Counted from the first letter of the stretch, positions 37,565 through 53,241 are shown. The stretch is DNA of 64,000 nucleotides from Bryobacterales bacterium (GCA_020851555.1 JADZCM010000035.1:1-64000); one strand, 5' to 3'. A program made the numbers and translations. The notes: generated by a model from the sequence alone, not told the origin.

Positions 37565-39889
37565 TCAGAAGTTCGCGCTGGCCGGCTGTGACGTCCCAGC
37601 CGAATTGGACAACACCACGGAGACCGAACCGATGGCGCCGATCGCACCCTGTACCTGGAAGGGCTGCGTGTAGAGGAACGAACTGCCGAATTGTCCGGAG
37701 TTCGCTCCGCCGTACCAGGTTGTGAAAGCGGCGCTCACCGGCACAGTAAGCGAAGTGGTTGCCAGGTTTCCACCGGCAGCGGGAGTGAAGGTGAACACCG
37801 CCTGAGTCACCTCCCGCGGAGTGGAGTAGCCGGTTATCAGCAGGTTGAAGCCGCTGCCGGTCCTGGCCACCTGGACGGAATTGATCCGCGGCGCGGACCG
37901 GGCGATCTGCACGGTCCGGCTGGGCGCCGGAGTGGGCGTGATGTTCTGGCCGCCGGCCAGAAGCTGGTCGATTGTCAGAATGATGCGGCCGGCCACCGTG
38001 CCGGTTTGTATGGCGGGGGTGGAAGTCGGGAACGTGGCCCGCGTCTGGCCGGCCGGAATGGTGAAGTTCACGGTCCTGCCGCCCGTCGAAAACTGTATGG
38101 ACGGGTCGTCTGAAGGGACCACGGCATCAGGGACGAACTCCAGGCGCGCCCGGCCGGTGATTGCCAGCGCGTAGGGCGAGCCGAGCTGCACGTCGAAGGC
38201 GGGCTGCTGAGCCGGGTTGGCCACGTCCGGAAGGCCCGTAACAGAAACCGCCGGCGCTGGCGGGTTCACGGTCAGGCTGAACTGCTTGGCGGCCGCCCCC
38301 CCGCTTGAGTCGGTGACGCGAAGCGTGAAGCTGAACGCTCCACTCTGCGTGGGTGCGCCGCTGAGAGCCGCTGCGTTGGAGTCCAACGTCAGGCCGGGCG
38401 GCAATGCGCCCGATGCCACTGACCAGGTGTAAGGGGGAGCACCCCCGCTGGCGGCCAAAGCCTGCGTGTAGGACACACCCACCGTGCCGGCAGGAAGCGG
38501 GGAAGCTGTGACAATGGTGAGGGCCGTGCTCACAGTGAGGCTGAACTGCCGCGTCAGCGTCTGGAGCCCATCGCCGGCGGTCACGGTGAAGACGGATGTT
38601 CCCGGGGACGTGGGCGTGCCGCTGAGCACCAGGGTCGGGGCATCGAATGTCAAGCCCGCCGGCACGGAACCGCTCACCGAGGCGGAGTACGGGGGCCTCC
38701 CTCCGCTGCCCAGTTGCTGCGTGTAGGCGGCGCCCACGACAGCGGCCGGCAATGGCGAGGCTGCCAGGGCGAGCGCCGGGTAGATGTGGATGTCGTAGTA
38801 GTTCGGGAAGGTCACTCCCTGGCTGTCTCTCCACACGGCGACGAAACTGTATGTTCCGGCCGCGGTCGGCGTGCCGCTGAGCACGCCGGTCTTGGCGTCC
38901 AGTACGACGCCCGGCGGGAGTTGTCCGCCGGAGATAGACCAAATCCACGGCCCGATTCCCGAAAAAGCGACAAGCGTCGCCTGGTAGGGGACGCCAACCT
39001 CTCCGTCCGGGCCTTGCGTACTGCCGCTTTGGACGATGTTCAGAGTGAAAGCCTTTGTGCCGATCACCCCCAGGGCGTCGGAAACACGGACGCTGAAGCT
39101 GAATGAGCCGATCTCGGCCGGATTCCCGGCCAGAACCCCCGCCGTACTCAGGGACAGGCCGCGCGGCGGCGCACCGGAGGCTATCAGCCAGGTGTATGGA
39201 GCCTGCCCGCCCGTAACGGTCAGCGTCTGCGAGTAACCGGCTCCCAACGCGCCGTTGGGCAGAGGGGACGAGGTGGTAATCGTCAGCGCCGGATAGACTC
39301 TCCAACCAAACGCCTGCACGGCAGTGACGCCGGCGCTGTCGTTGACCGATATCTGGACTCTTCCTGCGTCCACACCGGCCGGCGTACCGCTGATCACCCC
39401 GGCCGGACTGAGGGTCAAACCGGGGGGTAGGGATCCTCCGCTCACGCGCCAGTTGCTGTAGGGCGGGGTACCCAGCGTGGCTGTCAATGCCTGCGAATAC
39501 GGGACGCCCACGGTCCCCACCGCCAGGCTCGTTGTCTGAATCACCGGCGCAGGGTTGATGGTGAAGGTCCTCACCGCCGCCGACGGGACGGTACGGTTGA
39601 AGACTTGTACATTCACGGTTCCCGCCGGCACGAGCAGCGCTGAGTCGACCGTCACCAGGAGCTGTGTAGGGGTCGCCGAAAACGGGATCAGCAGCGTGTC
39701 TCTGAAGTTCACTCTGGAGACGCCGTCCGCCACGAAGTTGCTCCCATTCACGGTCAAGGTGAATGGAGCTGCGCCGGTCGTGGTGGCCGTCGGACTGATG
39801 CTGTTGAGCACTGGTGTGGGGACTTGCGCCTCAAGCGCTCCGCAAAACACAACCAAGGACATCGCGGCGAAGACTCGATGGCTCCTCAT
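37565..39889 (-). CDS. Exported protein with IPT/TIG domain and five putative-Ig (He_PIG) repeats
   Basis: A 774-residue exported protein. An IPT/TIG-like domain (NSISPTATTTGAAPFTLTVNGSNFV) opens the mature part. Five He_PIG-type repeats follow, each built as GxxYxQxL...PPYxW...G.LPPGLxL...G.LSGTP...G.xxFxxxV.D. A C-terminal beta domain of about 200 residues ends the chain. Such stacks serve as stalks or adhesin-like modules on the cell surface; no catalytic domain is present. The 3' neighbour on the same strand overlaps by 4 bases. Confidence 0.85.
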   Translation of the reverse strand: MRSHRVFAAMSLVVFCGALEAQVPTPVLNSISPTATTTGAAPFTLTVNGSNFVADGVSRVNFRDTLLIPFSATPTQLLVTVDSALLVPAGTVNVQVFNRTVPSAAVRTFTINPAPVIQTTSLAVGTVGVPYSQALTATLGTPPYSNWRVSGGSLPPGLTLSPAGVISGTPAGVDAGRVQISVNDSAGVTAVQAFGWRVYPALTITTSSPLPNGALGAGYSQTLTVTGGQAPYTWLIASGAPPRGLSLSTAGVLAGNPAEIGSFSFSVRVSDALGVIGTKAFTLNIVQSGSTQGPDGEVGVPYQATLVAFSGIGPWIWSISGGQLPPGVVLDAKTGVLSGTPTAAGTYSFVAVWRDSQGVTFPNYYDIHIYPALALAASPLPAAVVGAAYTQQLGSGGRPPYSASVSGSVPAGLTFDAPTLVLSGTPTSPGTSVFTVTAGDGLQTLTRQFSLTVSTALTIVTASPLPAGTVGVSYTQALAASGGAPPYTWSVASGALPPGLTLDSNAAALSGAPTQSGAFSFTLRVTDSSGGAAAKQFSLTVNPPAPAVSVTGLPDVANPAQQPAFDVQLGSPYALAITGRARLEFVPDAVVPSDDPSIQFSTGGRTVNFTIPAGQTRATFPTSTPAIQTGTVAGRIILTIDQLLAGGQNITPTPAPSRTVQIARSAPRINSVQVARTGSGFNLLITGYSTPREVTQAVFTFTPAAGGNLATTSLTVPVSAAFTTWYGGANSGQFGSSFLYTQPFQVQGAIGAIGSVSVVLSNSAGTSQPASANF

Positions 39890-40932
39890 CGCTCACCTCC
39901 GCGGCGAACCGGCTCGGGCCGGGAGACGGCTCGGCGCGGGTCGGCTTGTGAATCCGGAACAAACACGAGGCGGGGCGGGCCGCCGGCGTCCAGCAGCCAG
40001 AGGAGGTCCGACTCCGCGCCGGTGACCCGGAAGGCGGCCCCTCCGGGCAGCCGTTCCAGGCCGCTCACCACGCAATCACAGGAAAGCGTCTGCGGTTCCC
40101 CGCCCTCCAGGCTCAGGCTCAGGATTCCGGCGGGCTCGGCGTTCGCCACCAGCACACTGCGCTTGTCCGGCGCGGCAGCCACCCCAACCGGCCGGGTAAC
40201 CCCCTCGGCCGGTCCGCCGATTGGGGCGAGCACGGCCTCGCCTTTGGGGTCGCGCACCAGCGTCACCAGGCCGGTCCCGCCGTCCGCAACCAGCGCATCC
40301 GGGCTCCCGGGCAGGAAAGCCAGGCTGGGCCGCGAAGTGACGGACGTCAAGACCCGCGGGCCGGCGTCGCTCGTCAGCAGCCACACGGGCGTCTCTCCGC
40401 CGCTGGCGGCGAAGAGCACCGCGTCGCCCGCGTCATTCACGGCCAGCGCGCCCGCGCCGCCGTCCGGCTGGGGCAGTTCGATACTCCACGAGACGGAGGG
40501 AGCATCCGGCAGACCGCCCAGTACCGCCACGGCGTTCGTCTCCGGGTAGAAGAACGCCGCCGCTCCACCCCCGGGGCTGATCGCCAGGCGCGCGGCGCCC
40601 CAGGCCAGCGGCAACTCCGTCAGGCCGCCGGAGGCGTTTAGTTCCCTCAGCAGCACGGCCCGGCGGCCACGCACGGTGAGCGCCAGCGCATAGTCCTCGG
40701 CGGGGGGGAAGACGACCGTCTCGAATCCCATCCGGGACAGGACGGGCCGGCCGAGGGTGGCGGCTCCGGGAACTCCGAGCACCGGCCGGATCCCGGCCGC
40801 CCGGTCGAACACGAAACCAACCACCGGACCGCTCACCGGGGCGGCATCCTGAGCCGCCGCGCCAAGGGCAGCCGCGGAGATCAGAGCCGCACAGGACATG
40901 ATGCGAACCAGAACAGCAGCAGTGCGAGTCAT
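39886..40932 (-). CDS. Exported beta-propeller-like protein, function unknown
   Basis: A 348-residue exported protein (signal about 1-30). The mature part is a run of short beta blocks such as YALALTVRGRRAVLLREL, LAISPGGGAAAFFYPETNAVAVL, LAFLPGSPDALVADGGTGLVTLV and VGVAAAPDKRSVLVANAEPAGILSL, the rhythm of a WD40/YVTN-type propeller. The ATG at 40932 follows GGAGGG. It is overlapped by the putative-Ig protein downstream, so both likely share a transcript. Confidence 0.72.
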   Translation of the reverse strand: MTRTAAVLVRIMSCAALISAAALGAAAQDAAPVSGPVVGFVFDRAAGIRPVLGVPGAATLGRPVLSRMGFETVVFPPAEDYALALTVRGRRAVLLRELNASGGLTELPLAWGAARLAISPGGGAAAFFYPETNAVAVLGGLPDAPSVSWSIELPQPDGGAGALAVNDAGDAVLFAASGGETPVWLLTSDAGPRVLTSVTSRPSLAFLPGSPDALVADGGTGLVTLVRDPKGEAVLAPIGGPAEGVTRPVGVAAAPDKRSVLVANAEPAGILSLSLEGGEPQTLSCDCVVSGLERLPGGAAFRVTGAESDLLWLLDAGGPPRLVFVPDSQADPRRAVSRPEPVRRGGER

Positions 40933-40949
40933 CGTATCCCTCCTGGCCA

Positions 40950-41543
40950 TTACTGTGGTCCGCCCACCGTGGGCGTTCCGGCGGAGATGGTGGTCGGCGG
41001 CGGCGGCGGAGAAGCAGGGGATCCTTTGTCCTTGCGGGTGGCAACCACGATACCGCCCGCCGCCGCTCCGCCCGCGATCGCCAGGATCGCCAGCAGTTTG
41101 CCGGAAATCCCGCCTGCCGCCGCGGCCGTAATCGCCGCGTTGACCTGCGTGACAGCCGCGCTCGCCGTAACCCCTTCGAAAGAAGCTTCGACGCGTATCT
41201 GGAACTTGCCCGGCACGTCGTTCGCGCGGAGACCCTTGGCAACGGCCCTGCCTCCACTGTCCGTGCGCACCTGGAGTGTCCGCGTGCCATTGTCGAAGAC
41301 CCCGCCCGCTCCGCTGTCGGGGAGCAGGAACAGGACCGCCGCGCCGGCCACCGGCTTGTGGTTCTCGTCCTCCACCTGCACGATCACCTCGCGCGCCGTG
41401 CGCTGCCGGATGTTGTTGATGGCGCCCTCGCCCTCAACGATCACGATGTTCAGCTTGGCCGGCGCCGCCTGGGCCCGGGCGGAGGAGCCGAGCGGCGGCA
41501 GCGTCAGCAGAATGGAAAGGAGAAGCGCGACTACCGGACGCAT
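40950..41543 (-). CDS. Exported Ig-like protein with C-terminal membrane anchor
   Basis: A 197-residue protein with a signal peptide (VVALLLSILLTLPPLGSSARA), a single Ig-like domain (REVIVQVEDENHKPVAGAAVLFLLPDSGAGGVF, Big_1/carboxypeptidase-regulatory style), a Gly/Ala membrane helix (about 150-175) and a short charged tail (RKDKG). It would sit with the Ig domain outside the cytoplasm. It is divergent from the DUF4384/caspase genes and may share their control region. An in-frame start at 41570 is possible. Confidence 0.7.
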   Translation of the reverse strand: MRPVVALLLSILLTLPPLGSSARAQAAPAKLNIVIVEGEGAINNIRQRTAREVIVQVEDENHKPVAGAAVLFLLPDSGAGGVFDNGTRTLQVRTDSGGRAVAKGLRANDVPGKFQIRVEASFEGVTASAAVTQVNAAITAAAAGGISGKLLAILAIAGGAAAGGIVVATRKDKGSPASPPPPPTTISAGTPTVGGPQ

Positions 41544-41640
41544 CCCAGTTCCAGTGAAAGAGTCGACCATGGAAAGCCCTCTCTTGTCCCTATCCTACCT
41601 ATTATGGGCCAAAAGGCCTATTTGCGTTTCGCTTTTCCAC

Positions 41641-41649
41641 TGCTATTCT
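41641..41649 (+). promoter_or_regulatory. Extended -10 promoter of the DUF4384/caspase module
   Basis: TGC followed by TATTCT forms an extended -10; no -35 is clear. The start would be near 41656, immediately before the strong AAGGAGGG at 41658-41665. A CATAAT on the minus strand at 41616-41611 may serve the divergent gene. Confidence 0.42.
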
Positions 41650-41670
41650 GGAGACACAAGGAGGGTTTCT

Positions 41671-42582
41671 ATGTGGTCCCGGCGATTTGTGGCGATAACC
41701 GGCCCTCTTCTGCTCGTTGTGGCCGCCGGCAGCGCGCCGGCGCAGAGCCAGGCCGGTAAGCGTCTGAGCGCCAGAGAGATCTTCTACTCGGCGCCGGGAG
41801 AATCCGTGGGGGCCAGGACGGAGGCGGCCCCCAAGGCGGTGAGCGCCCCCAAGAAGGCGGCGCCGCCGCAGGCCGCCAAGGCCAAACCCGCCGCGCCGCC
41901 CGCGGGCGCCGGCGCTCCGGCCCGCGTCAGGGAAGGCGCCGAACTGGTGCAGGCTGCCTACACCGCTCCGGCGGCCTATCCGCTCGGGCTCCGCTACAGC
42001 ATTCTCAGGCGCACCGGCGCCGACTCGGTGGAAGCCGGCCCCGATGAAGTTTTCCACGCCGGCGACAGAATCCGGTTGCGCGTCGAAACCAACAGCAACG
42101 GATACCTTTACATCATTCACCGCGGGTCGAGCGGCATATGGAAACCGCTGTTCCCGTCCGCGGAGACCGCCGGGGGAGACAACCGGGTGGAGAGGGGCAA
42201 GCCCTACGACATTCCGCCGGGCTACGTCTTCACCTTTGATGAGCAGCCCGGAGAGGAGAGACTGTTCATCGTGCTGACCCGGCAGCCGGAACCGGACCTG
42301 GAGAACCTTATCTACACCTTGCGGAAGCCGGCCCGGACGGAAGAGCCTGCCGCTCAGCCCGAACCCAAGGTCCTGCTGGCGCAGAACATGGTCAATATCA
42401 ACGACAGCGTGGTCAACCGCCTGCGGAACGTCTACGCCCGGGACCTGATCATCGAGAAGGCCGACGAAGCATCCCCGGCGCGCGCCGCCGGCCCCGCCAA
42501 GGAGAAGGCTGTGTACGTCGTGAACCCGGCGCGTTCGGCGGATGCGCGCGTGGTGGCGGACGTGACCCTCAGCCACAAGTGA
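41671..42582 (+). CDS. Exported DUF4384 protein 1
   Basis: A 303-residue exported protein (signal WSRRFVAITGPLLLVVAAGSAPAQ) with a Lys/Ala/Pro-rich linker (about 45-90) and a DUF4384 domain: VFHAGDRIRLRVETNSNGYLYIIHRGSSGIWKPLFPSAE. DUF4384 often accompanies caspase-like peptidases in multidomain proteins; here it is separate. Its role is unknown, perhaps sensing or binding ligands outside the cytoplasm. The ATG at 41671 follows AAGGAGGG. A second DUF4384 gene starts one base after its stop. Confidence 0.82.
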   Translation: MWSRRFVAITGPLLLVVAAGSAPAQSQAGKRLSAREIFYSAPGESVGARTEAAPKAVSAPKKAAPPQAAKAKPAAPPAGAGAPARVREGAELVQAAYTAPAAYPLGLRYSILRRTGADSVEAGPDEVFHAGDRIRLRVETNSNGYLYIIHRGSSGIWKPLFPSAETAGGDNRVERGKPYDIPPGYVFTFDEQPGEERLFIVLTRQPEPDLENLIYTLRKPARTEEPAAQPEPKVLLAQNMVNINDSVVNRLRNVYARDLIIEKADEASPARAAGPAKEKAVYVVNPARSADARVVADVTLSHK

Positions 42583-42583
42583 C

Positions 42584-43261
42584 ATGAGACCGCTTCTAGC
42601 GCTGGCCCTGCTGCCGCTCAGCCTGGCCGCTCAAACTCGCGACGGTTCCGGCTCATCCACGCAACGGATGGAGATCATCCTGGAGCGGCAGGAAGCCGGC
42701 GCCTGGAAGGTCATAGACCCCGGCCTGGTGCTGGCGTCCGGCGAGCGCGTCCGTTTCCGGTTCCGCGCCAACTTCGCTGGCTTTCTCTACGTAATGAATT
42801 ACGGCTCCAGCGGCAAGTACGACCTGCTCTTCCCGCGCGAGGAAACGGGACGCCAGAACCGGATCGAGGCGGGCCAGGAATACCGGATCCCCGCCACGGA
42901 ATCGTGGTTCAAGATCGGCGGGCCGCCGGGCTTCGACATAGTCTACTGGCTGGCGAGCCCCGTAACCCTGGGAAGCGACGGGATGGGACTGCCTGCTCCG
43001 CCGAAGGACAAGCAGCCTCCCAAGATCCTGCTGCCCCGCTGCGACGACTCCATCTTCCGCGCCCGGGGACTGTGCATCGATTCGAGCGCCGGCGTGCGCG
43101 GCATCCCCCAGGCCGAGGAACTGCCGGAGAACCTGAAAGGCGTGCCGGGAGCCCGGTCGCGCGAACTGGTGATCGTGCGCAAGGACGAGGCTTTCGTGGT
43201 TAGCTCCCCGGTCCCGCTCTCGGGGCCGGTTCTGTATGAATTCCGGCTGGCCCACAAGTGA
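42584..43261 (+). CDS. Exported DUF4384 protein 2
   Basis: A 225-residue exported protein (signal LLALALLPLSLAAQ) with a second DUF4384 domain: GERVRFRFRANFAGFLYVMNYGSSGKYDLLFPREE. It shares the GSSG...LFP core with its neighbour but is otherwise clearly diverged. The C-terminus (PLSGPVLYEFRLAHK) resembles that of protein 1 (LSHK), as in many DUF4384 ends. Its stop is followed within 4 bases by the caspase gene. Confidence 0.82.
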   Translation: MRPLLALALLPLSLAAQTRDGSGSSTQRMEIILERQEAGAWKVIDPGLVLASGERVRFRFRANFAGFLYVMNYGSSGKYDLLFPREETGRQNRIEAGQEYRIPATESWFKIGGPPGFDIVYWLASPVTLGSDGMGLPAPPKDKQPPKILLPRCDDSIFRARGLCIDSSAGVRGIPQAEELPENLKGVPGARSRELVIVRKDEAFVVSSPVPLSGPVLYEFRLAHK

Positions 43262-43265
43262 AGCT

Positions 43266-45323
43266 ATGATTCGAATCCTTCTGTTACTGGGATTGTTCGC
43301 GCCGTTCGCCGGCTTCGCCCAGCAAAGGCCCGCCGCGCAGAGGGACCTGAAAGTCGAAAAGGACGCTCCGCCCGCCGCCGCCCCCGCCGCCGCCATCCCG
43401 CGGAGCTACGCCCTGGTCATGGGCATTTCCAGCTACAAGAACTTGCCCGCGGAACACCAGCTTCGCTACGCGGAACGCGACGCGGAGGAGATGTACTCGG
43501 TCCTCATCAGCCCGGAGGGCGGCAACTTCCGCGCGGAGAACGTGCACACGCTCATCGGGCCCAAGGCGACGCTGGCCAACATGCGCCGGGAGTTGGAGCA
43601 GTGGCTGCCCTCCGTGGCCCAGGAAGACGACCGGGTGCTGGTCTACTTCGCCGGCCACGGCTTCGTCTCGCAGGGCCGGCCTTATCTGGCTCCCTACGAC
43701 ATCGCACTGGACCAGATTGCGAAGACCGCTTACCCCATGGCCACGCTGGGTTCGGTCTTCGGGAAGCTCAAGGCGAAGTGGAAGGTGCTGCTGACGGATT
43801 CCTGCCACAGCGGAGCGGTCGCGCCGGACGCCGATGTGCAGGCCATCAACCGGTCCCTGATGGACCTGTCGCGCTCGCTCTTCTCGCTGACAGCCAGCCG
43901 GGACCGCGAGCGTTCCTTCGAGAGCCCCGACTGGGGCGGCGGACACGGGATCTTTACCTACTACGTCGTGCGCGGGATGGAGGGCGAGGCCGACGAGAAC
44001 CGGGACGGCGTCGTGACCGCCGACGAACTGGCGGAGTACGTGCGGCGCAACGTGCGCGAGGCGACCAGCGGCCAGCAGAACCCGACCTCCGACCGCAGCA
44101 GCTTCGACCCCGATATGCTGCTGGCCTACGTGCCGTCCAGGGCTTCGGCGGGCGCGCCGCCGCCGCCCAAGTTCGGCGCTCTCATCGTGGAAACGAACAT
44201 GGACGGCGTGGAGGTCTTCCTGGACGGCAAGTCCGTGGGCGTCGCCGCCAAGGGGCAGCCCCTGCGGCTTCCCGGACTGGCGCCGGGAAGCCACACCATT
44301 CAAGGCGTCAAGATGGGCTACGAGCCGGACGGCCCGCGCGAGGAGATGGTCTATCCCGGGCAGGAGAAAACCGTCACGCTGCGAATCATGGTTCTCCGCC
44401 GGCGCAACAAGGCGGCCACGGACGCCTTCGAGCGGGGGCTGGAACTCTACAGCAAGGGGTATGAAGACAACTACCGCCGGGCGGCCGGGAGTTTCGAAAA
44501 AGCGCTGAAGGAGGACCCCCGCTACAGTCAGGCGGCCTTGTATCTGGGGAGAACCTACAACGCCCTGTTCGATGAAACGAGAGCGCAACAGGCGTTCCGG
44601 AAGGCCATCGAGATCGACCCGGATTACCTGGAGGCGCGCGCCAGCTACGCCGGCATGCTGCTGGACATCGGCGACGCGGACGAGGCCATCCGGCAGTTGA
44701 CGGTGGTGGTCCGGCGAGATTCGAAGCACGCCATGGCGTACTACCTGCTGGCCCAGGCGTTTCGCATGAAGGAGCAGTACGCGCAATCGGTGGAAGCTGC
44801 CCGCACGGCGATCCGGCTGAACCCGGCGAATCCTGAGCCCCATTTCTGGCTGGCCGAGAGCCTGCGGCTGGGAGGGAACTACGACGAAGCCGCGGCGGAG
44901 TACGGCGAGTACCTGCGGCTCAGCGACTTCGACAGCAAGCTGGCGGGCAAGCTCAACTACTACGTGCTCGGTTTCCTGGCGGGGTTCGGGAAGAAGAAGC
45001 GGGCCGCGCAGCAGGACATCTGGAAGGATCTGCGGAGCCTGGCGTATTTCGGCATCTGCGACTGCCGCCGCAAGCAGTCCGACTGGGACGCCGCCATATT
45101 CAACTGCCAGAAGGCGCTGACCTACGACCCGGAGGACCCGTACGTGCACTATGCGCTCGGCCTGGCGTACGCCAGGAAGGCGCAGGCCTCGGGCAGCGTG
45201 GAAAGCCTGCCCGCGGCGCGACAGCATTTCGCCGCCATGCTGCGCATCAACAGCGATATGTCGGAGGCCGAGTATGCCCGCAAGAACCTGGCCTCCATCG
45301 ATGCGGCGCTGAAGGCGCGGTAG
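43266..45323 (+). CDS. Exported caspase-like (peptidase C14) protein with PEGA and TPR domains
   Basis: A 685-residue protein with a signal peptide (ILLLLGLFAPFAGFA). The caspase fold covers about 46-290, with catalytic His131 in YFAGHGF and Cys180 in LTDSCHSGA. A PEGA domain (GALIVETNMDGVEVFLDGKSVG) spans about 300-370. TPR repeats fill the remainder (for example YSQAALYLGRTYNALF, PHFWLAESLRLGGNYDEA). This looks like an active exported orthocaspase-type peptidase. It follows two DUF4384 genes closely, suggesting one functional unit. Substrate unknown. Confidence 0.9.
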   Translation: MIRILLLLGLFAPFAGFAQQRPAAQRDLKVEKDAPPAAAPAAAIPRSYALVMGISSYKNLPAEHQLRYAERDAEEMYSVLISPEGGNFRAENVHTLIGPKATLANMRRELEQWLPSVAQEDDRVLVYFAGHGFVSQGRPYLAPYDIALDQIAKTAYPMATLGSVFGKLKAKWKVLLTDSCHSGAVAPDADVQAINRSLMDLSRSLFSLTASRDRERSFESPDWGGGHGIFTYYVVRGMEGEADENRDGVVTADELAEYVRRNVREATSGQQNPTSDRSSFDPDMLLAYVPSRASAGAPPPPKFGALIVETNMDGVEVFLDGKSVGVAAKGQPLRLPGLAPGSHTIQGVKMGYEPDGPREEMVYPGQEKTVTLRIMVLRRRNKAATDAFERGLELYSKGYEDNYRRAAGSFEKALKEDPRYSQAALYLGRTYNALFDETRAQQAFRKAIEIDPDYLEARASYAGMLLDIGDADEAIRQLTVVVRRDSKHAMAYYLLAQAFRMKEQYAQSVEAARTAIRLNPANPEPHFWLAESLRLGGNYDEAAAEYGEYLRLSDFDSKLAGKLNYYVLGFLAGFGKKKRAAQQDIWKDLRSLAYFGICDCRRKQSDWDAAIFNCQKALTYDPEDPYVHYALGLAYARKAQASGSVESLPAARQHFAAMLRINSDMSEAEYARKNLASIDAALKAR

Positions 45324-45332
45324 ACTCCTCTC

Positions 45333-45965
45333 ATGACGGACCTCCGGCTCGACGAGGTTGAAGTCCGCGTGCTGGGCGCGCTGATGGAGAAGGAAGCGGC
45401 CACCCCGGACTACTACCCCCTCTCGCTGAACGCGCTTGTGGCGGCGTGCAACCAGAAGACCAGCCGCGACCCCGTGCTTTCGCTCGGGGAGGACGCGGTG
45501 CTGGCCGCCATAGACCGGCTGTGCGCGCGGGGCCTGGCTCTGGACATCAGCGGGGCCGAGCACCGCGTACACAAGTACGCTCACCGCCTGGGGGAGGTTT
45601 TCAACCTCGACCGCCGGGAGTACGCGGTGCTGTGCCTGTTGCTGCTGCGGGGGCCGCAGACGGCGGGCGAGTTGCGGGGGCGCGCGGACCGGCTCTATAC
45701 ATTCGACGACATCGCCTCCCTGGAGACCGCCTTGGGCCGCCTGGCGGAGCGCACGCCGCCGCTCGCCGCGGAACTGCCGCGCCGGCCCGGCGAAAAGGAA
45801 CCGCGGCACGTTCACCTGCTCTCGGGCCCCGTCGAGCCGCGGGCGCCGGCGCCGGCCTCCCCCGCCGTGCGCAGTTCGCCGCTCGAAGACCGGGTGTCCC
45901 GGCTGGAAGCGGACCTGGAGGAACTGCGGCGGCAGTTCGACCAATTCCGCAGGGGCTTCGAGTAG
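45333..45965 (+). CDS. YceH-family (DUF480) protein
   Basis: A 210-residue protein with two winged-helix-like halves. LDEVEVRVLGALMEKEAATPDYYPLSLNALVAACNQKTSRDPV is the family signature. A coiled-coil C-terminus (VSRLEADLEELRRQFDQF) follows. The family is widespread and its function is unsettled. It starts 9 bases after the caspase gene and is convergent with the kinase gene. Confidence 0.92.
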   Translation: MTDLRLDEVEVRVLGALMEKEAATPDYYPLSLNALVAACNQKTSRDPVLSLGEDAVLAAIDRLCARGLALDISGAEHRVHKYAHRLGEVFNLDRREYAVLCLLLLRGPQTAGELRGRADRLYTFDDIASLETALGRLAERTPPLAAELPRRPGEKEPRHVHLLSGPVEPRAPAPASPAVRSSPLEDRVSRLEADLEELRRQFDQFRRGFE

Positions 45966-45983: not shown

Positions 45984-47573
45984 TCAGCGCGCGTCCCGGG
46001 CGCAGCGGAAACCGATGTTGGCTTCCCGGTAGCGGGCGGGCACGGCGGTCCACTCGGTGGTCACGTTTTCGACGAGCGGGATGTCGTAAGCCCCGCCGCT
46101 CATGGAGTACCACGGCTCGTCGGCGGTGGGCGGCGGCTGAAGGTACCGCGCAAAACGCTGGAGCGCGCCGGCGCTGGGCGTGATCAGCTCGTCGACGAAT
46201 TCCCAGACGTTGCCGGCCATCTGCAAGGCGCCGTAGGGGCTGGCGCCCTGCGGAAAAGCGCCCGCCGGCATCAGCTCATGGCTGCCCAGCGAGCTGTTGT
46301 CGGCCACGTTGGCGAACGAGGGGTCCTTCGTATTGCCCCAGGGATAGGCCCGTCCGTCATCTCCCCGCGCCGCATGCTCCCATTCGTTCTTCGCCGGCAG
46401 CCGCTTGCCCGCCCAGCGGGCGAACTCGCGTGCATCCACGATCGTAATGTTCACCACCGGGTAATCCGGCTTGTCCTTCGGGAATCCGGGCGGGAAGGGG
46501 CGCTGCCGGGCGAGACAGAAGTCGGCGTAGGCGCGGTTGGTGACCTCGGTGCGGTCGATGTAGAAGCTGCCGCCGGCCAGCACCATGTCGCCCGACGGCA
46601 GAGACAACAGCGGGCTCAGTTCAGCGGGCTTCTCCGGCGGCGGGGGAGCGGCGGCCCGCGGCCTCAGCGCGAAGTACAGAACCAGGGCCACGGCCAGCAC
46701 AACCGCGGCGAGGGCCGGCAGCATCCACCGGCGGCCAGGCGCCGGAGCGGGCGGCTCCGGAGGGGCTATCGCCTGTTCCAACTCGCGGCGCACTTCCGCG
46801 AAACTCTGCGGCCGCTGGGCGGCGCTCTTGGCGACCGACCGGCCGATCAGGCGAACCACCGGCCCGGGGACGCCCGCCGCGTCCAGCGGCGCCAGGTCCA
46901 CCTGCTCGTGCAAAATCCGGGCGAAGAGCTGCTCGACGTTGTCGCCCGCGATCGGCCGCTGCCCGGAGAGCAGCTCGTACAGCAGGATTCCGAAGGCATA
47001 GACGTCAGCCAGTTGCGTGACGTCGCGGCCCGTTACCTGCTCGGGGGCCATATAGTAAGGCGTGCCCAGGGTGAAACCGGGGCGGGTCAGGCTCAGTTCT
47101 TCGGACTTGGCGATGCCGAAGTCCATGAGCTTTACCGCGCCGGTTTCGTTGATGTGGATGTTCTCGGGCTTGATGTCGCGGTGGATGATCTTCTGGGAGT
47201 GAATGTACTCGAGCGCTTTCGCAATCTGGATGGCGGTGCGCAGCCGTGCCGTCAGGTCTCCGGTGCGGCCGCCCTTCATGGCGCTGCGGAGGTCCTCGCC
47301 CCGCAGGAACTCCATCACCATGAACGGCTGGCCGGCCTCTTCGCCGAAGTCGTAAACGCTCATCACGTTTTCGTGGGCGAGAGCGCCGGCGACCTGGGCT
47401 TCGCGCAGGAAGCGGGCCTTGGCCTCCGGGTCGGCCGAAGCCTCTTCGGTGAGGATCTTCACGGCCACCGTGCGTCCGATGACGGTGTCCCGCGCCCGGT
47501 AGACGCGCGACATGCCGCCTCCCAGGAACTCCTCCAGTTCGTACTTGCCGATACGCTTGGGAATCTCCGTCAC
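45984..47573 (-). CDS. Transmembrane Ser/Thr kinase with FGE/sulfatase-modifying-like C-terminal domain
   Basis: A 529-residue protein with a complete Hanks-type kinase (Gly loop about 18-23, Lys39, HRD 131-133, DFG 151-153, APE 176-178), a membrane helix at about 284-303 and a periplasmic FGE-like domain (about 330-529; AGGSFYIDRTEVTNRAYADF, NEWEHAARGDDGRAYPWGN, GFRCARDAR). The cysteine pair needed for formylglycine formation has no counterpart: only two Cys are visible in this domain and neither is at that site. It is thus a binding or structural version. The start overlaps the end of tssM, tying it to type VI control; PpkA-type kinases play that role elsewhere. Confidence 0.9.
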   Translation of the reverse strand: MTEIPKRIGKYELEEFLGGGMSRVYRARDTVIGRTVAVKILTEEASADPEAKARFLREAQVAGALAHENVMSVYDFGEEAGQPFMVMEFLRGEDLRSAMKGGRTGDLTARLRTAIQIAKALEYIHSQKIIHRDIKPENIHINETGAVKLMDFGIAKSEELSLTRPGFTLGTPYYMAPEQVTGRDVTQLADVYAFGILLYELLSGQRPIAGDNVEQLFARILHEQVDLAPLDAAGVPGPVVRLIGRSVAKSAAQRPQSFAEVRRELEQAIAPPEPPAPAPGRRWMLPALAAVVLAVALVLYFALRPRAAAPPPPEKPAELSPLLSLPSGDMVLAGGSFYIDRTEVTNRAYADFCLARQRPFPPGFPKDKPDYPVVNITIVDAREFARWAGKRLPAKNEWEHAARGDDGRAYPWGNTKDPSFANVADNSSLGSHELMPAGAFPQGASPYGALQMAGNVWEFVDELITPSAGALQRFARYLQPPPTADEPWYSMSGGAYDIPLVENVTTEWTAVPARYREANIGFRCARDAR

Positions 47574-50500
47574 TGCGCCACCCGCGCGACGCAGCCCAAC
47601 CCTGACAGAAATCCCTTCTGGAAGACGGGCGCCGCGCCCGGCATCTCCAATTCAAAGGAGACCGTCAGCGGGCTGCCGTCGGGCAGCGTGAGAGGCTTGG
47701 CGGCGCGGCCCTGCCGCAGCACCCAGTCGAGGCGGTGAACGTTGCCGCTGGCTTGCCAGCGGTCGGCGTCGCCGAAGAACTCGAAAGCCGCCCATAGCCC
47801 CTCGTAGGAGTTGAACGTCAGGTCCGGGCCGCCGCCGAACTTCCCGGTCAGCCTCAGGTCCTGCGTTCCGCTGCCGGGCCACACGAAGGTCATGGAGCTT
47901 TGCCGCCCCCGGCTCACGTTCAGAGTCTGCCGGTCGATGATCAACGCCAGGCTCTGCACGCCCTGCGGCGCGGTCGCGCGCAGAGTGTAGGAGAGCCGGG
48001 GCGCAGAGGCCCCTCCGGGATAGAGCGCATCCGAGAACGCCGCCGCGCGGTTGAAGAAAGTCACGAAGGCGGGATTCAGAGCGATCCCCCCGCTGGGGTT
48101 GGGGGCATACGCGGACCCCTGCTTGGCCAGGTAGTTGCGCAGGGCGCCGTCGTAGAAGGTCCACAGCGATCCCTGCCCGGGCTGGAACACCGCGTTGACC
48201 TCCTGGAGCGTGGCCTTCTGCGTGGCGGCTGCCTGGAACGGATACTTGCTCATCAACTGCCGGTAGGCGGCGCAGAAGGCGGCGCCCTTGGAGTTCAGTT
48301 CCCCCGGACCCATGGCCCGGATCAGGGCCTCGACGTTCAGAATCGGGTCTTCCAGGAGCTTCTGGGTGGTCTGCTCCACTTTGCCCTCGGGGTCGATGCG
48401 GAAGCCCTGCGCCATCTGCCGCGTGGTGATCTTGGCGGCAGTGGCCTGATTGTTCACCTGCGCCAGCGCCGGATCGTTGGGGCCGGCCGAGGTTCCGGAA
48501 ACCTGTTCGACGGAGGCCTGAAGGCTCACCAGGGCGTTCATATAGCCCGTGTTGGACGGCCCGATATACCGGTCCTTGCTCTCCGGGCTGACTACCGCCT
48601 GAACCGGTTGGAAGGCGTTCTTGACCGGTTCGGAGGCGACCGCCGTATTCTGGGAAACCACCCACAGCGCCGCCAGCAGCGGCGACTGGTTGCCCGACAG
48701 GATGGTCAGCTTGTCGGCGGCGTCCTTCAGGCTGCCGTAGCGAAGCACGGTGGTCGCTTGCAGAAACGCCCGCCACTGCCCGATGAAGTCCGCCGTGTAC
48801 CGCTCGCGAAGCTGGCGCTCCAGTTGAGCGCGGTCGACTGCGGCGCCGCCCTGGCCGCCGAGCACCCAGGGCTCTCCCGCAAAGAACCGGTCCGCGTTCG
48901 GCAGCGATTTCTGCATGAAATCCCAGCCGCCCCGCGTGAAAGCGCCCTGGATCTCCTTGTTGTTGACCACGGCGCGCGCCGAGCCGGGAAACTGCTGGTT
49001 GAAGTTGAGCCCCGGGTTCTGCCGGGACGCCTCCGCCAGCATGAACTGATACACGCGCTCGATGCCGGTGAATTGTGAGAGGTAGCGCCGGCCGCGCTCC
49101 ACGGCGCCGGTGTCATACTCGGCCGCGAACGGATTCGCAAGCCGCAGGTCTTCAGAGTAGAAGTCGAACTGTTTGCGCACGAGCTGGAGCCGGTCCGGAT
49201 CCACGCTCTTGCCTTCGAGCCAATGCCGAAGCAGGACCGGCGACAGGAAGGCTTGCGTGCTCTTATCGTGATGCGCGGTCGTGATCAGGTAGGCCTTGAG
49301 CGTGTCGTAGACCGGGCCGTACGGGTCGGTAGGGGCCGGAGTGGCCGGCAACCGGCTGAGAACATTGACCAGGCTGAGCTGCGTGCCGCCGAACAGCAGG
49401 CGGAAGAAGCGGCTATAGTAGGCGCCTCGCACGGTCGGGTAGAGGTCGCCGCCGGTGTACAGGCCCCAGCGCAGCCGCAGCGGAGGCCCCTCCCGGCGGT
49501 GACGGGTGAGGGTTTCCAGTTCCTGACGGAGAGTCTCCAGGCGGGAGAGCGTATCGAGCGGAGGCGCATCAAAGGCCGCCGGCTGGGCCGACCCGATGGC
49601 CCGCACCGCCTCCAGCGCGCGCGCCTCCAGGCTCCGGTTGCCGCTGTAGGACACGATCAGCGCGATGGCGTAGACCAGCGCCAGTGAAGCCGCCGCGGCC
49701 AGCAGGATACGGCGGAGCAGGGTGACCCGGGAGCCGGCGCCACCCGCTGCCGCCTTCGTGCTGTCGGCAAACAGGACATCGTTGAACAAGTGGGAGAGGA
49801 AGAGCCACTGCGGCACCTTGCGCACGGCTGCCTGCCGCGGCGCCTCGGGCGCGGCGGGTTGCGGCAGGCCCCCGGTGGCGAACACCATGGTCGCTCCGCT
49901 GGCGGCGCTCGCGGAGGGCTGCCGTCCGGCCGGCGTTACGGCCGGAGCCACCATCTCCTGCGTGACCACGGGCCGCACACCCGAGAAGTAAAAACCCCTG
50001 AGATACGGACCGGCCTGGAGTTGGCTGGGCCGGCACATGTCCACCAGAAACTCCACCACGCCGGGACGCAGCTTGCGCAATTCCCTCGGAAACTCGTAAA
50101 CCCCCGGCAGCACGGCGGGATCGTGTTCCCGGGAGAGGAAATCGAGCCGCCGGTCGCACAGCGAGTAGAGCAGGTTGTTGAACGCCTCGGTCAGCCGCTG
50201 GGTCTCCCGTTCCGCGTACACGCCCGCGGCCTGCGTTTCGGGCGCTTCCAGAGTCACGCCGGCCACCTGCCCGGCCTCCTCGCGGCCCAGGTTGCGGACG
50301 TAGTCCGTGAAGAACGGAATCCGGTCGGCCTTGGTGAAGAGGACGTAAACGGGAAGCCTCGTTCCGAAGGATCTGGAAGCCTGCTCCAGCGCCCCACGCA
50401 GCGCGCGCGAAGCGGCCTGGAGGGCTTCCGCGGCGCCCGGCTGGAAGAACTCCTCGCACGAGAAGCACACCACGGCTGCCCGGTGCGCCTGCGCCCCGCG

Positions 50501-51058
50501 GCCCAGCATCGGAGCCAAAGTAGCCGGGCGCAACCGGCGCAGCAGCCGGCTCCAGGAAGCGCCTTCGGCCAGGATTTTGGCGCCGGCCTCGGCCACCACC
50601 GCCCGCCGGGCGAACCAGAGGTTGACGGCGCGGGTGGGCGCAACCAGGCCCTCCTGGAAGACGTGTCCGGCGAGCAGTTCCGGCTCCAGGCCGGAGTGCA
50701 GGACGGTCGATGTCTTGGCCGCGCCTTCCCTGCCGAGCACCAGAAAGACCGGAAGACCGGACAGATTTGCCTTGCGGCCCAGTTCGGACGCAGCCAGACG
50801 GGACTGGGCCTCGCGCACGAGCAGGTCAACCTCGCCCGAGGCGCCCGCCGCGTCCGCGGCGCCCTGCCCCGCGGATCGAGGAGCCGCGCTCTTGAACCGG
50901 TACCAGAGATATGCGCCCGCCGCCAGGAAACCGATCAGGGCGAGTCCGCCGCGCAGAATCCAGATTTCGCCGCCCTTCAGCCCCAGGATCGAGCCGAGAA
51001 ACCAGACCAGAACGAGGTAGCCTGCCAGGGCCGCGCTGACGACCAGGTAGAGATTCAT
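47570..51058 (-). CDS. tssM: Type VI secretion membrane-complex protein TssM (IcmF-like)
   Basis: A 1162-residue inner-membrane protein of the T6SS trans-envelope complex. Two helices lie at about 4-26 and 33-52, and a third near 445-465. The cytoplasmic nucleotide domain has a P-loop-like GREGAAKT at 109-116, in which the last Gly of GxxxxGK[ST] is Ala. The large periplasmic part includes the IcmF-related region and the TssM C-terminal beta domain (PGSGTQDLRLTGKFGG). It follows tssL by 15 bases. Confidence 0.93.
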   Translation of the reverse strand: MNLYLVVSAALAGYLVLVWFLGSILGLKGGEIWILRGGLALIGFLAAGAYLWYRFKSAAPRSAGQGAADAAGASGEVDLLVREAQSRLAASELGRKANLSGLPVFLVLGREGAAKTSTVLHSGLEPELLAGHVFQEGLVAPTRAVNLWFARRAVVAEAGAKILAEGASWSRLLRRLRPATLAPMLGRGAQAHRAAVVCFSCEEFFQPGAAEALQAASRALRGALEQASRSFGTRLPVYVLFTKADRIPFFTDYVRNLGREEAGQVAGVTLEAPETQAAGVYAERETQRLTEAFNNLLYSLCDRRLDFLSREHDPAVLPGVYEFPRELRKLRPGVVEFLVDMCRPSQLQAGPYLRGFYFSGVRPVVTQEMVAPAVTPAGRQPSASAASGATMVFATGGLPQPAAPEAPRQAAVRKVPQWLFLSHLFNDVLFADSTKAAAGGAGSRVTLLRRILLAAAASLALVYAIALIVSYSGNRSLEARALEAVRAIGSAQPAAFDAPPLDTLSRLETLRQELETLTRHRREGPPLRLRWGLYTGGDLYPTVRGAYYSRFFRLLFGGTQLSLVNVLSRLPATPAPTDPYGPVYDTLKAYLITTAHHDKSTQAFLSPVLLRHWLEGKSVDPDRLQLVRKQFDFYSEDLRLANPFAAEYDTGAVERGRRYLSQFTGIERVYQFMLAEASRQNPGLNFNQQFPGSARAVVNNKEIQGAFTRGGWDFMQKSLPNADRFFAGEPWVLGGQGGAAVDRAQLERQLRERYTADFIGQWRAFLQATTVLRYGSLKDAADKLTILSGNQSPLLAALWVVSQNTAVASEPVKNAFQPVQAVVSPESKDRYIGPSNTGYMNALVSLQASVEQVSGTSAGPNDPALAQVNNQATAAKITTRQMAQGFRIDPEGKVEQTTQKLLEDPILNVEALIRAMGPGELNSKGAAFCAAYRQLMSKYPFQAAATQKATLQEVNAVFQPGQGSLWTFYDGALRNYLAKQGSAYAPNPSGGIALNPAFVTFFNRAAAFSDALYPGGASAPRLSYTLRATAPQGVQSLALIIDRQTLNVSRGRQSSMTFVWPGSGTQDLRLTGKFGGGPDLTFNSYEGLWAAFEFFGDADRWQASGNVHRLDWVLRQGRAAKPLTLPDGSPLTVSFELEMPGAAPVFQKGFLSGLGCVARVAQ

Positions 51059-51073
51059 GGGAACACCTCAATC

Positions 51074-51766
51074 CTATTTGCGGGTTTCAGCCACGGCGGT
51101 CCGGAGCGCGGACACTCCGGAGCCAAGCGACACGCGAAAGCCAACCAGCAGCAGAAGGGCCAGCAGGACGCAAGCCGCGGCCCCCATCAACATCGGGCGG
51201 AACCAGGTGTCCGGCGCCGCGGCCGCCGCCAGCCTGGCCGGAGGCGCCCAATCCGGCGAAAGCAGCCCGCTCGGCTTGCGGATGCGCCGGATCTTCTCGG
51301 CGGCCGCGTCCATGCGGGCCTTGAGATCGGCCTGGCCACCGGCCCCGTACTTGCCGCGATAGCCGAGCAGCAAGCATAGATAGAACACTTCGAGCACATC
51401 GGCCAGTTGGGCGGACTCGTTCCTCTCCAGAAGCCGCTGCAAGCTCTGGAAGAAGATCTCGCCCGCAACGTGGCCGCCGAACATCTCTTCTTGCAGCGGC
51501 TTTCTCGGCCAGCCCGCAAAGACCGGATTCTGAAGGTTGAGCACGGACTCGTCCAGGAATGCGACCACGGCGAAGGACGCCAGACGGGCGTCTTCAGCGG
51601 CGTAACCGCGGTTACGCGCCTCCTGCTCGGCCGCGCCCAGCAGTTGCCGCATCTGGCCGCGGAAGACTTCGGCGTTGGCCACCGGCTGGCGATTCGCCCG
51701 GAGGCGCACGATCGCGGTGATCGACTCCTGGTAGATCAGTGCGAGGTTTTCGGTTCTCGTACCCAT
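51074..51766 (-). CDS. tssL: Type VI secretion membrane-complex protein TssL (DotU)
   Basis: A 230-residue tail-anchored protein. The cytoplasmic DotU helical domain is recognisable (FAVVAFLDESVLN, LADVLEVFYLCLLLGYRGKYG), with one C-terminal membrane helix (MGAAACVLLALLLLVGF). It has no peptidoglycan-binding extension. TssL binds TssM and TssK to dock the baseplate. The gap to tssK upstream is about 113 bases, with nothing recognised in it. Confidence 0.93.
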   Translation of the reverse strand: MGTRTENLALIYQESITAIVRLRANRQPVANAEVFRGQMRQLLGAAEQEARNRGYAAEDARLASFAVVAFLDESVLNLQNPVFAGWPRKPLQEEMFGGHVAGEIFFQSLQRLLERNESAQLADVLEVFYLCLLLGYRGKYGAGGQADLKARMDAAAEKIRRIRKPSGLLSPDWAPPARLAAAAAPDTWFRPMLMGAAACVLLALLLLVGFRVSLGSGVSALRTAVAETRK

Positions 51767-51879
51767 GGTTCTGGTGTCTCGGCCGCTCGGACCATCCCAG
51801 CCGGCGGCCGCTCCCTCACGGCGGCGGTCCCATGAGCCTGAGCGCGCGGAACCGCGGACGTCAGCGAGCGGCTATGGCA

Positions 51880-53241
51880 CTAGTCCCTAGCCTCCAGAAT
51901 GACATGCAGCCCGATCTCGGCGCCGGGGAACTCGCCGGGCAGGTACACTCCGACCTCCCTGGTTCTGACGATGTGATCCCAGCACGGCCCCGACCGGCTC
52001 ACGCCGAAATACTGGCAGTCCACCCTGGGAGCCACCGCCGCGGGCGGCACCGGCAGGTGGGTCAGGGGCATCCCCGGAAGCGCCCTCTGCACCAGCTTGG
52101 GAACGAACTCCTTCGAGCAGACTTTGACGAGCTGCGGCGTGAGGCGTATAAGGTCCGCTTCGCCCATGGCGGCGCGGATCGAAAGGATCCACCTCGCCGT
52201 CCCGAGGCACCTCTGGTCGGCGACGGCTCCCTCAAAGAAGTAATCGCCCGCCGCCCCAAGCGGGATGGTGATGCAGTTGGTGGGGAGGATAGTCTCGAGA
52301 TGGAACCGAATGTGCCGGTCTAATTCGCCGAAGCACTCCTCCAGCCGGTCGTGGTCGTACAAAGGGAGACCCGCCGGGTGGGAGTCGATTCCGAAGGTGC
52401 ACAGCGCGCCGGCCAGACGCGAGAGTTCGACGTACACCTCTTCCGGGTGCCCGTGCTTGGCCAGCAAAAGGCCTCTCAGCCGCGCCAGGCTGGAGTTCAC
52501 GCAATGCAGGAACCAGAAGGTGGCAACCTCCTGCTGAGAGAACGCCGCCGCCGCTTCTCCGGGCCGGTGCGCGGTGCGCCGGAATGCCTCGCTCTTCTCG
52601 CCCAGAATCTCCTGCAGCCGGCGGAGTATCCCCATGAGCCGTTCACTGGCCGAGACTTGCAGGCAGGGCGGGATGAAATCGGAGTCGAAGACGAAGTGCC
52701 CGGCGCCGCTGCGCTTCACCCTGGCCAGCGGAAGCGTCACAAGGTCCTCGCGCGGCTCGCTCTCCAGGTAGAAGCGGAAGTTCTTACGCCCGAACCTGAT
52801 CTGTTTGACGTCGCCGCCCGTGTTCTCATCGGGAACCTGGAATGGCTCGGATACATAGCGCGCGGCGCCGCCGGCCTCCGCATCCGGCTCGGCGCAGTTG
52901 ACGGCGTTCGGACGGTAGGCCGGGAGCCCCAGAAGGATGGTCAGCTTGTCGGCCAACGGCGGAAATGCCTCCGTGATGTTCCGGGTGGGAGGCAGGGAGT
53001 CGCAATCGGGCATCTCGAAGACCAGGCCATCCGGCATGATGCCGCGTGCCCGGAGGATGGACAGCGTCCCGTTGTGTATCGCCTCGGCGTCCATCTCGAG
53101 CGCCGCGAGGCCGTAGCCGGCGAAGGTCAGCGCCGACGCCGCGAAATGGGAGATGTCTTCGAAATAACGGGCCTGTGCCTGGAAATGGTGCGGCGCCAGG
53201 TGCATGCCCTCGGACCAGATGACTCGCGCCAGACGTTTCAC
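51880..53241 (-). CDS. tssK: Type VI secretion baseplate protein TssK
   Basis: A 453-residue baseplate protein. MKRLARVIWSEGMHLAPHHFQAQARYFED is the hallmark N-terminus, and CVNSSLARLRGLLLAKHGHPEEVYVELSRLAGALCTFG matches the middle. TssK links the baseplate to TssL/TssM and has a shape like phage receptor-binding proteins. Other baseplate genes (tssE, F, G) are not in the window. Confidence 0.95.
   Translation of the reverse strand: MKRLARVIWSEGMHLAPHHFQAQARYFEDISHFAASALTFAGYGLAALEMDAEAIHNGTLSILRARGIMPDGLVFEMPDCDSLPPTRNITEAFPPLADKLTILLGLPAYRPNAVNCAEPDAEAGGAARYVSEPFQVPDENTGGDVKQIRFGRKNFRFYLESEPREDLVTLPLARVKRSGAGHFVFDSDFIPPCLQVSASERLMGILRRLQEILGEKSEAFRRTAHRPGEAAAAFSQQEVATFWFLHCVNSSLARLRGLLLAKHGHPEEVYVELSRLAGALCTFGIDSHPAGLPLYDHDRLEECFGELDRHIRFHLETILPTNCITIPLGAAGDYFFEGAVADQRCLGTARWILSIRAAMGEADLIRLTPQLVKVCSKEFVPKLVQRALPGMPLTHLPVPPAAVAPRVDCQYFGVSRSGPCWDHIVRTREVGVYLPGEFPGAEIGLHVILEARD

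Follow-up and report, generated by a model that had tools for sequence, protein, structure and literature searches.

Bacterial caspases are usually viewed as cytoplasmic proteases of cell death or defence, and the role of most of them is unknown. Prokaryotic caspase homologues (metacaspases and orthocaspases, PF00656) possess a caspase domain with a His/Cys dyad; TPR partners are common among them, and FGE is their fifth most widespread accessory domain (PMC3501461). The DUF4384 domain is found as the extracytoplasmic C-terminal domain of transmembrane Ser/Thr kinases, and its co-occurrence with kinase domains (PMC6426788), or with kinases and with caspases (PMC6426788, PMC7475262), has been mentioned in passing. 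TagQRST-PpkA, the type VI threonine phosphorylation system, likewise combines a transmembrane kinase with extracytoplasmic partners. Here, we analysed a 64,000-nucleotide stretch of DNA from a Bryobacterales bacterium (GCA_020851555.1, JADZCM010000035.1:1-64000; the window), which encodes a caspase homologue (C) with the same domain and dyad. In contrast to the described prokaryotic homologues, C is exported and forms a constant trio together with the exported DUF4384 proteins A and B. Unlike the DUF4384 domains of the kinases, those of A and B are free secreted proteins, present in two copies and tied to a caspase. All domains of A, B, and C are already known, and the open-access literature searched contained no account of such an exported trio or of links from it to kinases and Ig proteins.

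The trio had been proposed by a sequence-only reading of the window, and both the coordinates and the Pfam matches bear it out. The three genes are collinear, separated by one base (A/B) and four bases (B/C). Both DUF4384 matches exceed the curated cut-off of 27 bits (A, 51.1 bits; B, 55.6 bits), and C matches Peptidase_C14 (65.7 bits, cut-off 21.4) and PEGA (21.8 bits, cut-off 20.8), plus TPRs. The caspase residues His131 and Cys180 were found where that reading had placed them. A signal peptide of typical form begins each of the three products, as also claimed, and by a crude score 89–94% of orthologues carry one vs. 28% of internal control windows. A and B are the only DUF4384 genes, and C the sole C14 gene, of the 3.69 Mb genome, which is about 93% complete by estimate. 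By eye, the intergenic region shared by the A-B-C genes and a divergent operon (41571-41670) contains a GGCC-AAAA-GGCC palindrome, a possible operator.

Table 1. Features of the A-B-C locus and its surroundings, in coordinates of the window.
Feature	Position	Strand	Basis or remark
Exported protein, five He_PIG Ig repeats	37565..39889	-	
Exported protein, repeats like a beta-propeller	39886..40950	-	by eye; no Pfam match
Exported protein, weakly Ig-like; C-terminal hydrophobic segment, tail ITPGTPTVGxP	40950..41570	-	start 41543 or 41570
Gene A, exported DUF4384 protein, 303 aa	41671..42582	+	profile match, signal peptide
Post-signal-peptide motif LSAREIFY in A	41764..41787	+	conserved; family form L-T/S-A/P-R-E-L/I-F-Y/F
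DUF4384 domain of A	42052..42288	+	Pfam
Gene B, exported DUF4384 protein, 225 aa	42584..43261	+	profile match, AlphaFold model
DUF4384 domain of B	42731..42961	+	Pfam
Cysteine pair of B (PRCDD...ARGxC), candidate disulfide	43040..43075	+	invariant
Gene C, exported caspase-PEGA-TPR protein, 685 aa	43266..45323	+	profile match, model
Invariant Arg26-Asp27-Leu28 motif of C	43341..43349	+	N-terminus otherwise unconserved, linker-like
Caspase (C14) domain of C	43404..44102	+	His131 codon 43656-43658; Cys180 codon 43803-43805
PEGA domain of C	44175..44375	+	Pfam
TPR superhelix of C, including a conserved insertion that is modelled poorly	44415..45305	+	
yceH-type (DUF480) gene, between C and TssM	45333-45965		
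Ser/Thr kinase-FGE, candidate partner kinase	45984..47573	-	one hydrophobic segment; predicted extracytoplasmic FGE-sulfatase-like domain
Part of type VI locus (TssM, TssL, TssK)	47570-53241		

Protein A consists of the signal peptide, a conserved short motif, an Ala/Pro-rich linker, the DUF4384 domain, and a C-terminal “..LSHK”, an ending that A and B share in the form “..L.HK”. The short motif sits directly past the signal peptide in an otherwise variable, linker-like stretch and is altered or absent in DUF4384 proteins outside the family. We considered the motif, “LTARELFY” in its family form, as a site cut only by the caspase and rejected this idea. RGIF and RGAF variants occur in DUF4384 proteins without a nearby caspase, and a similar stretch precedes the DUF4384 domain of a fused kinase; the motif may therefore be a docking motif. 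An oxidising compartment would suit the invariant cysteine pair of B. The AlphaFold model of B shows a confident, beta-rich fold (pLDDT 86.5, pTM 0.85) without a PDB match at E 0.001 or better, the weak matches being to antibody-type beta sandwiches, so that the fold implies no function; a sequence search against the PDB also returned no match. Neither neighbour of the caspase is a gasdermin partner, as A and B match DUF4384 alone in Pfam.

The model of C (pLDDT 82.5) matches consensus TPR superhelices, and its caspase part resembles the MALT1 paracaspase (3v4o, TM 0.71 to the target). MALT1 has the same caspase fold followed by a beta-sandwich domain, a likeness of fold only, whereas C is an extracytoplasmic bacterial protein with TPRs. 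Because the C14 members characterised outside the animal caspases favour Arg or Lys at P1 (PMC5756287), cleavage behind these residues is predicted for C as well. The best NCBIfam match of the caspase domain is the EACC1-associated caspase NF047832, yet its 97.8 bits lie below the curated cut-off of 140.

Eighteen further genera-level genomes of this order contain full-length orthologues of C (54–70% identity). A scan of a genome collection, overlapping in part with this set, yielded 80 C loci at 57–74% identity, mostly in Bryobacterales/Bryobacteraceae metagenome-assembled genomes but including cultured Granulicella aggregans M8UP14 (L140), which has B and C along with the genes for the Ig, propeller, and He_PIG proteins described below. 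Loss of the gene order in relatives, or of the active site, had been named as grounds for abandoning the module, and neither applies. Among the 75 loci with at least 1.7 kb of sequence before C, 59 have at least two same-strand DUF4384 genes directly upstream, 12 have one, and four have none. His131, Cys180, and Asp178 are invariant in 86/86 loci, leaving the dyad intact throughout, and Arg26-Asp27 is kept in all 84 loci covering that region. The recurrence of the trio in tens of related genomes is beyond chance. When the reading frames lying up to about 10 kb from C were clustered without bias (86 loci), A/B were recovered in 75 loci, the Ig-like protein in 42, the propeller-like protein in 37, He_PIG in 35, and kinases in 24. 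With antisense-shadow-like clusters set aside, no other neighbour family recurred in more than eight loci.

The kinase-FGE gene is the next-but-one neighbour of C, in convergent orientation, and ends the type VI operon with a four-base overlap with TssM. This genome holds four kinases in all, and the chance of finding one next-but-one to C is about 0.6%; none of the four carries DUF4384. Two family relatives have 36 and 47 protein kinases, and the present genome has kept A-B-C despite its small size. In six other loci (L110, L113, L121, L124, L129, and L132), kinase > A > B > C form operons in which the kinase and A frames overlap. The L124 kinase was confirmed as Pkinase plus FGE-sulfatase, the architecture also encoded here. 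These six loci fall in one clade of the C tree and therefore represent one or few events. The L129 record is titled Arcobacter sp., yet it is an Acidobacteriota locus close to L124 on the tree, probably from a mislabelled assembly. Elsewhere, a kinase-DUF4384 fusion directly precedes C (L117 and L123), or a kinase-TM-DUF4384 > caspase-PEGA-TPR > Ig operon is found (L149 and L170, from two members of the same genus). On the C tree, the presence of an adjacent kinase switches at least ten times.

The same association extends beyond the module. Among 88 DUF4384 proteins from loci of a phylum search, 29 are fused to a kinase and five to a caspase, a ratio of about six, which does not support the view that DUF4384 proteins are mainly split-off parts of caspases. 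Of the stand-alone proteins in this sample, 31/54 have a kinase gene within 1.5 kb; the estimated chance adjacency is about 5–10% in genomes of about 30–110 kinases (binomial p about 1e-17 at 10%). In the rest of this phylum, transmembrane Ser/Thr kinases are the main context of DUF4384. Clusters of a caspase, a kinase-DUF4384, and a DUF4384 protein also occur in distantly related genomes of the phylum (L188, L174, L199, and L157) and suggest a wider family of such modules.

Our main reading, to which we assign a probability of roughly 45%, is that A-B-C is the extracytoplasmic arm of a kinase signalling system, working with a transmembrane Ser/Thr kinase and the divergent Ig protein. It draws on the conservation of the trio, the export signals, the intact active site, the co-inheritance of the Ig gene described below, and the recurrent linkage and fusion of DUF4384 to kinases. 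A and B would be secreted copies of a domain that is elsewhere the outer part of transmembrane eukaryotic-type Ser/Thr kinases, and C an exported caspase homologue on a PEGA-TPR scaffold. With its predicted Arg/Lys specificity, C would cleave envelope or surface proteins; the prime candidate substrates are the products of the divergent operon (Ig, propeller, and He_PIG), and further ones are the module's own A and C, in which the conserved motifs offer Arg35 and Arg26, respectively. We infer a physical complex in which A and B, held on the outer part of the kinase, would turn the result of cleavage into altered phosphorylation on the other side of the membrane, signalling in this inferred direction. 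In this genome, the candidate partner is the kinase-FGE beside C, although this kinase, convergent with C and overlapping TssM, may serve the type VI system instead. Other points against this reading are the scarcity of kinases close to C at most scorable loci (44/64 have none within 2.6 kb), the lack of DUF4384 in the four kinases of this genome, and the variation or loss of the A motif in DUF4384 proteins beyond the family. The evidence favours secreted DUF4384 domains as adaptors common to transmembrane kinases, with the caspase as the protease. An explicit protease-kinase relay, in which C would cut A (TAR|ELFY) and itself (QR|DL), or the Ig protein, and the cut would alter how DUF4384 engages the outer part of the kinase, appears improbable.

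The divergent gene next to A had been described as encoding an anchored Ig-like protein. The gene is real, and the “Ig-like” label is weak by sequence, as its Big_1 match of 20 bits lies under the Pfam cut-off of 34.9. The propeller-like and He_PIG genes, missed by the first reading, are part of the same conserved operon, which is divergent from A-B-C in most loci having it. Past the hydrophobic segment and a linker, the C-terminus of the Ig-like protein (40950-41100) carries ITPGTPTVGxP, which is strongly conserved in nearly all orthologues and is possibly a sorting tag or a phosphorylation site. We did not retain a cytoplasmic kinase site, as the L149 relative has an extra domain past the hydrophobic segment, which makes the membrane side ambiguous. 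A close Ig orthologue is present in 19/20 module-bearing genomes of the family vs. 1/17 without the module, uncorrected for phylogeny. On an RpoB tree of 40 genomes, the module is present in one member only of seven independent pairs; in about five to seven of these (5.4–6.8), the Ig orthologue agrees with the module, and in none does it oppose it (median p 0.016–0.06), at bit-score thresholds of 100 to 150 picked after the scores had been seen, with the top value including G339, counted by hand as its Ig gene adjoins C. The Ig gene is thus co-inherited with the module after phylogenetic correction, even where the two are unlinked.

This co-inheritance, together with an Ig gene near C in 41/69 scorable loci, would also suit a system in which C is a protease dedicated to the processing or shedding of the surface proteins from the divergent operon (Ig, propeller, and He_PIG), while A and B serve as substrate adaptors and most species involve no kinase. 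Gene arrangements also point that way: Ig follows C in the same direction in L060 (B > C > Ig), a C paralogue without A or B ends a single operon Ig > propeller > He_PIG > C in L061, and a kinase within 2.6 kb of C is absent in 44/64 scorable orthologous loci. However, such a protease would leave unexplained the mostly kinase-linked occurrence of DUF4384 and the kinase > A > B > C operons, and an unsystematic look at the three proteins identified no conserved cleavage site. We consider this explanation unlikely, though it is one to be taken seriously.

A type VI locus does lie near the module, as had been reported, past the yceH-type and kinase-FGE genes, and the module could be imagined as an accessory sensor of this system, analogous to TagQRST-PpkA and with the kinase-FGE as its kinase. 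In P. aeruginosa, envelope sensors work via the PpkA kinase (PMC6657622), and the kinase-FGE gene here belongs to a type VI operon; TssM and kinase-FGE neighbour the module in this genome and in scattered clades. Raw co-occurrence is also attractive, with TssK in 19/20 module-bearing family genomes vs. 9/17 without the module (Fisher p 0.005, uncorrected). The present genome has two TssK homologues (51880-53241 and G000 C9:41878-43158), and such pairs, in many cases separated by a few kb, are found in most type VI-bearing members of the family. The sensor reading failed in the independent-pairs test, however: TssK agrees with the module in about 2/7 pairs and does not differ in five, and one genome (G320) has the module without TssK. 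Type VI genes are physically adjacent in 8/61 scorable loci, recur in about six loci of the clustering, and are missing within 10 kb of C at most loci. Unlike TagQRST-PpkA, A-B-C contains a protease and is not co-inherited with type VI genes, which makes this alternative distinctly improbable. Of the module as first conceived, the conserved, exported, and ordered trio with its intact active site stands, whereas the split-off caspase parts and the link to type VI secretion or competition are not supported.

Caspase domains are found in polymorphic toxins (PMC3482391) and are implicated in bacterial cell death (PMC3501461), so that C might be secreted as a toxin or serve in self-killing, with inhibition by A and B. 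We saw neither a toxin delivery domain nor toxin-type variability, however, and the 54–74% full-length identity and stable order resemble a housekeeping signalling device. PADLOC gave a weak match for the caspase and no defence system beyond generic caspase and kinase models, and we regard a toxin as very unlikely. That A, B, and C are mere neighbours without a common function is hardly credible, being strongly disfavoured by the order kept across tens of genomes at 57–74% caspase identity and opposed by the co-inheritance with the Ig gene.

For the signalling arm that we prefer, the locus provides an exported caspase, conserved and catalytically intact by its residues, with two fixed partners. 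It thereby offers concrete candidates for substrate, adaptor, and readout, among them a surface protein inherited together with the module and a kinase that recurs as its partner. For DUF4384, occurrence in the extracytoplasmic part of kinases is a first clue to function.
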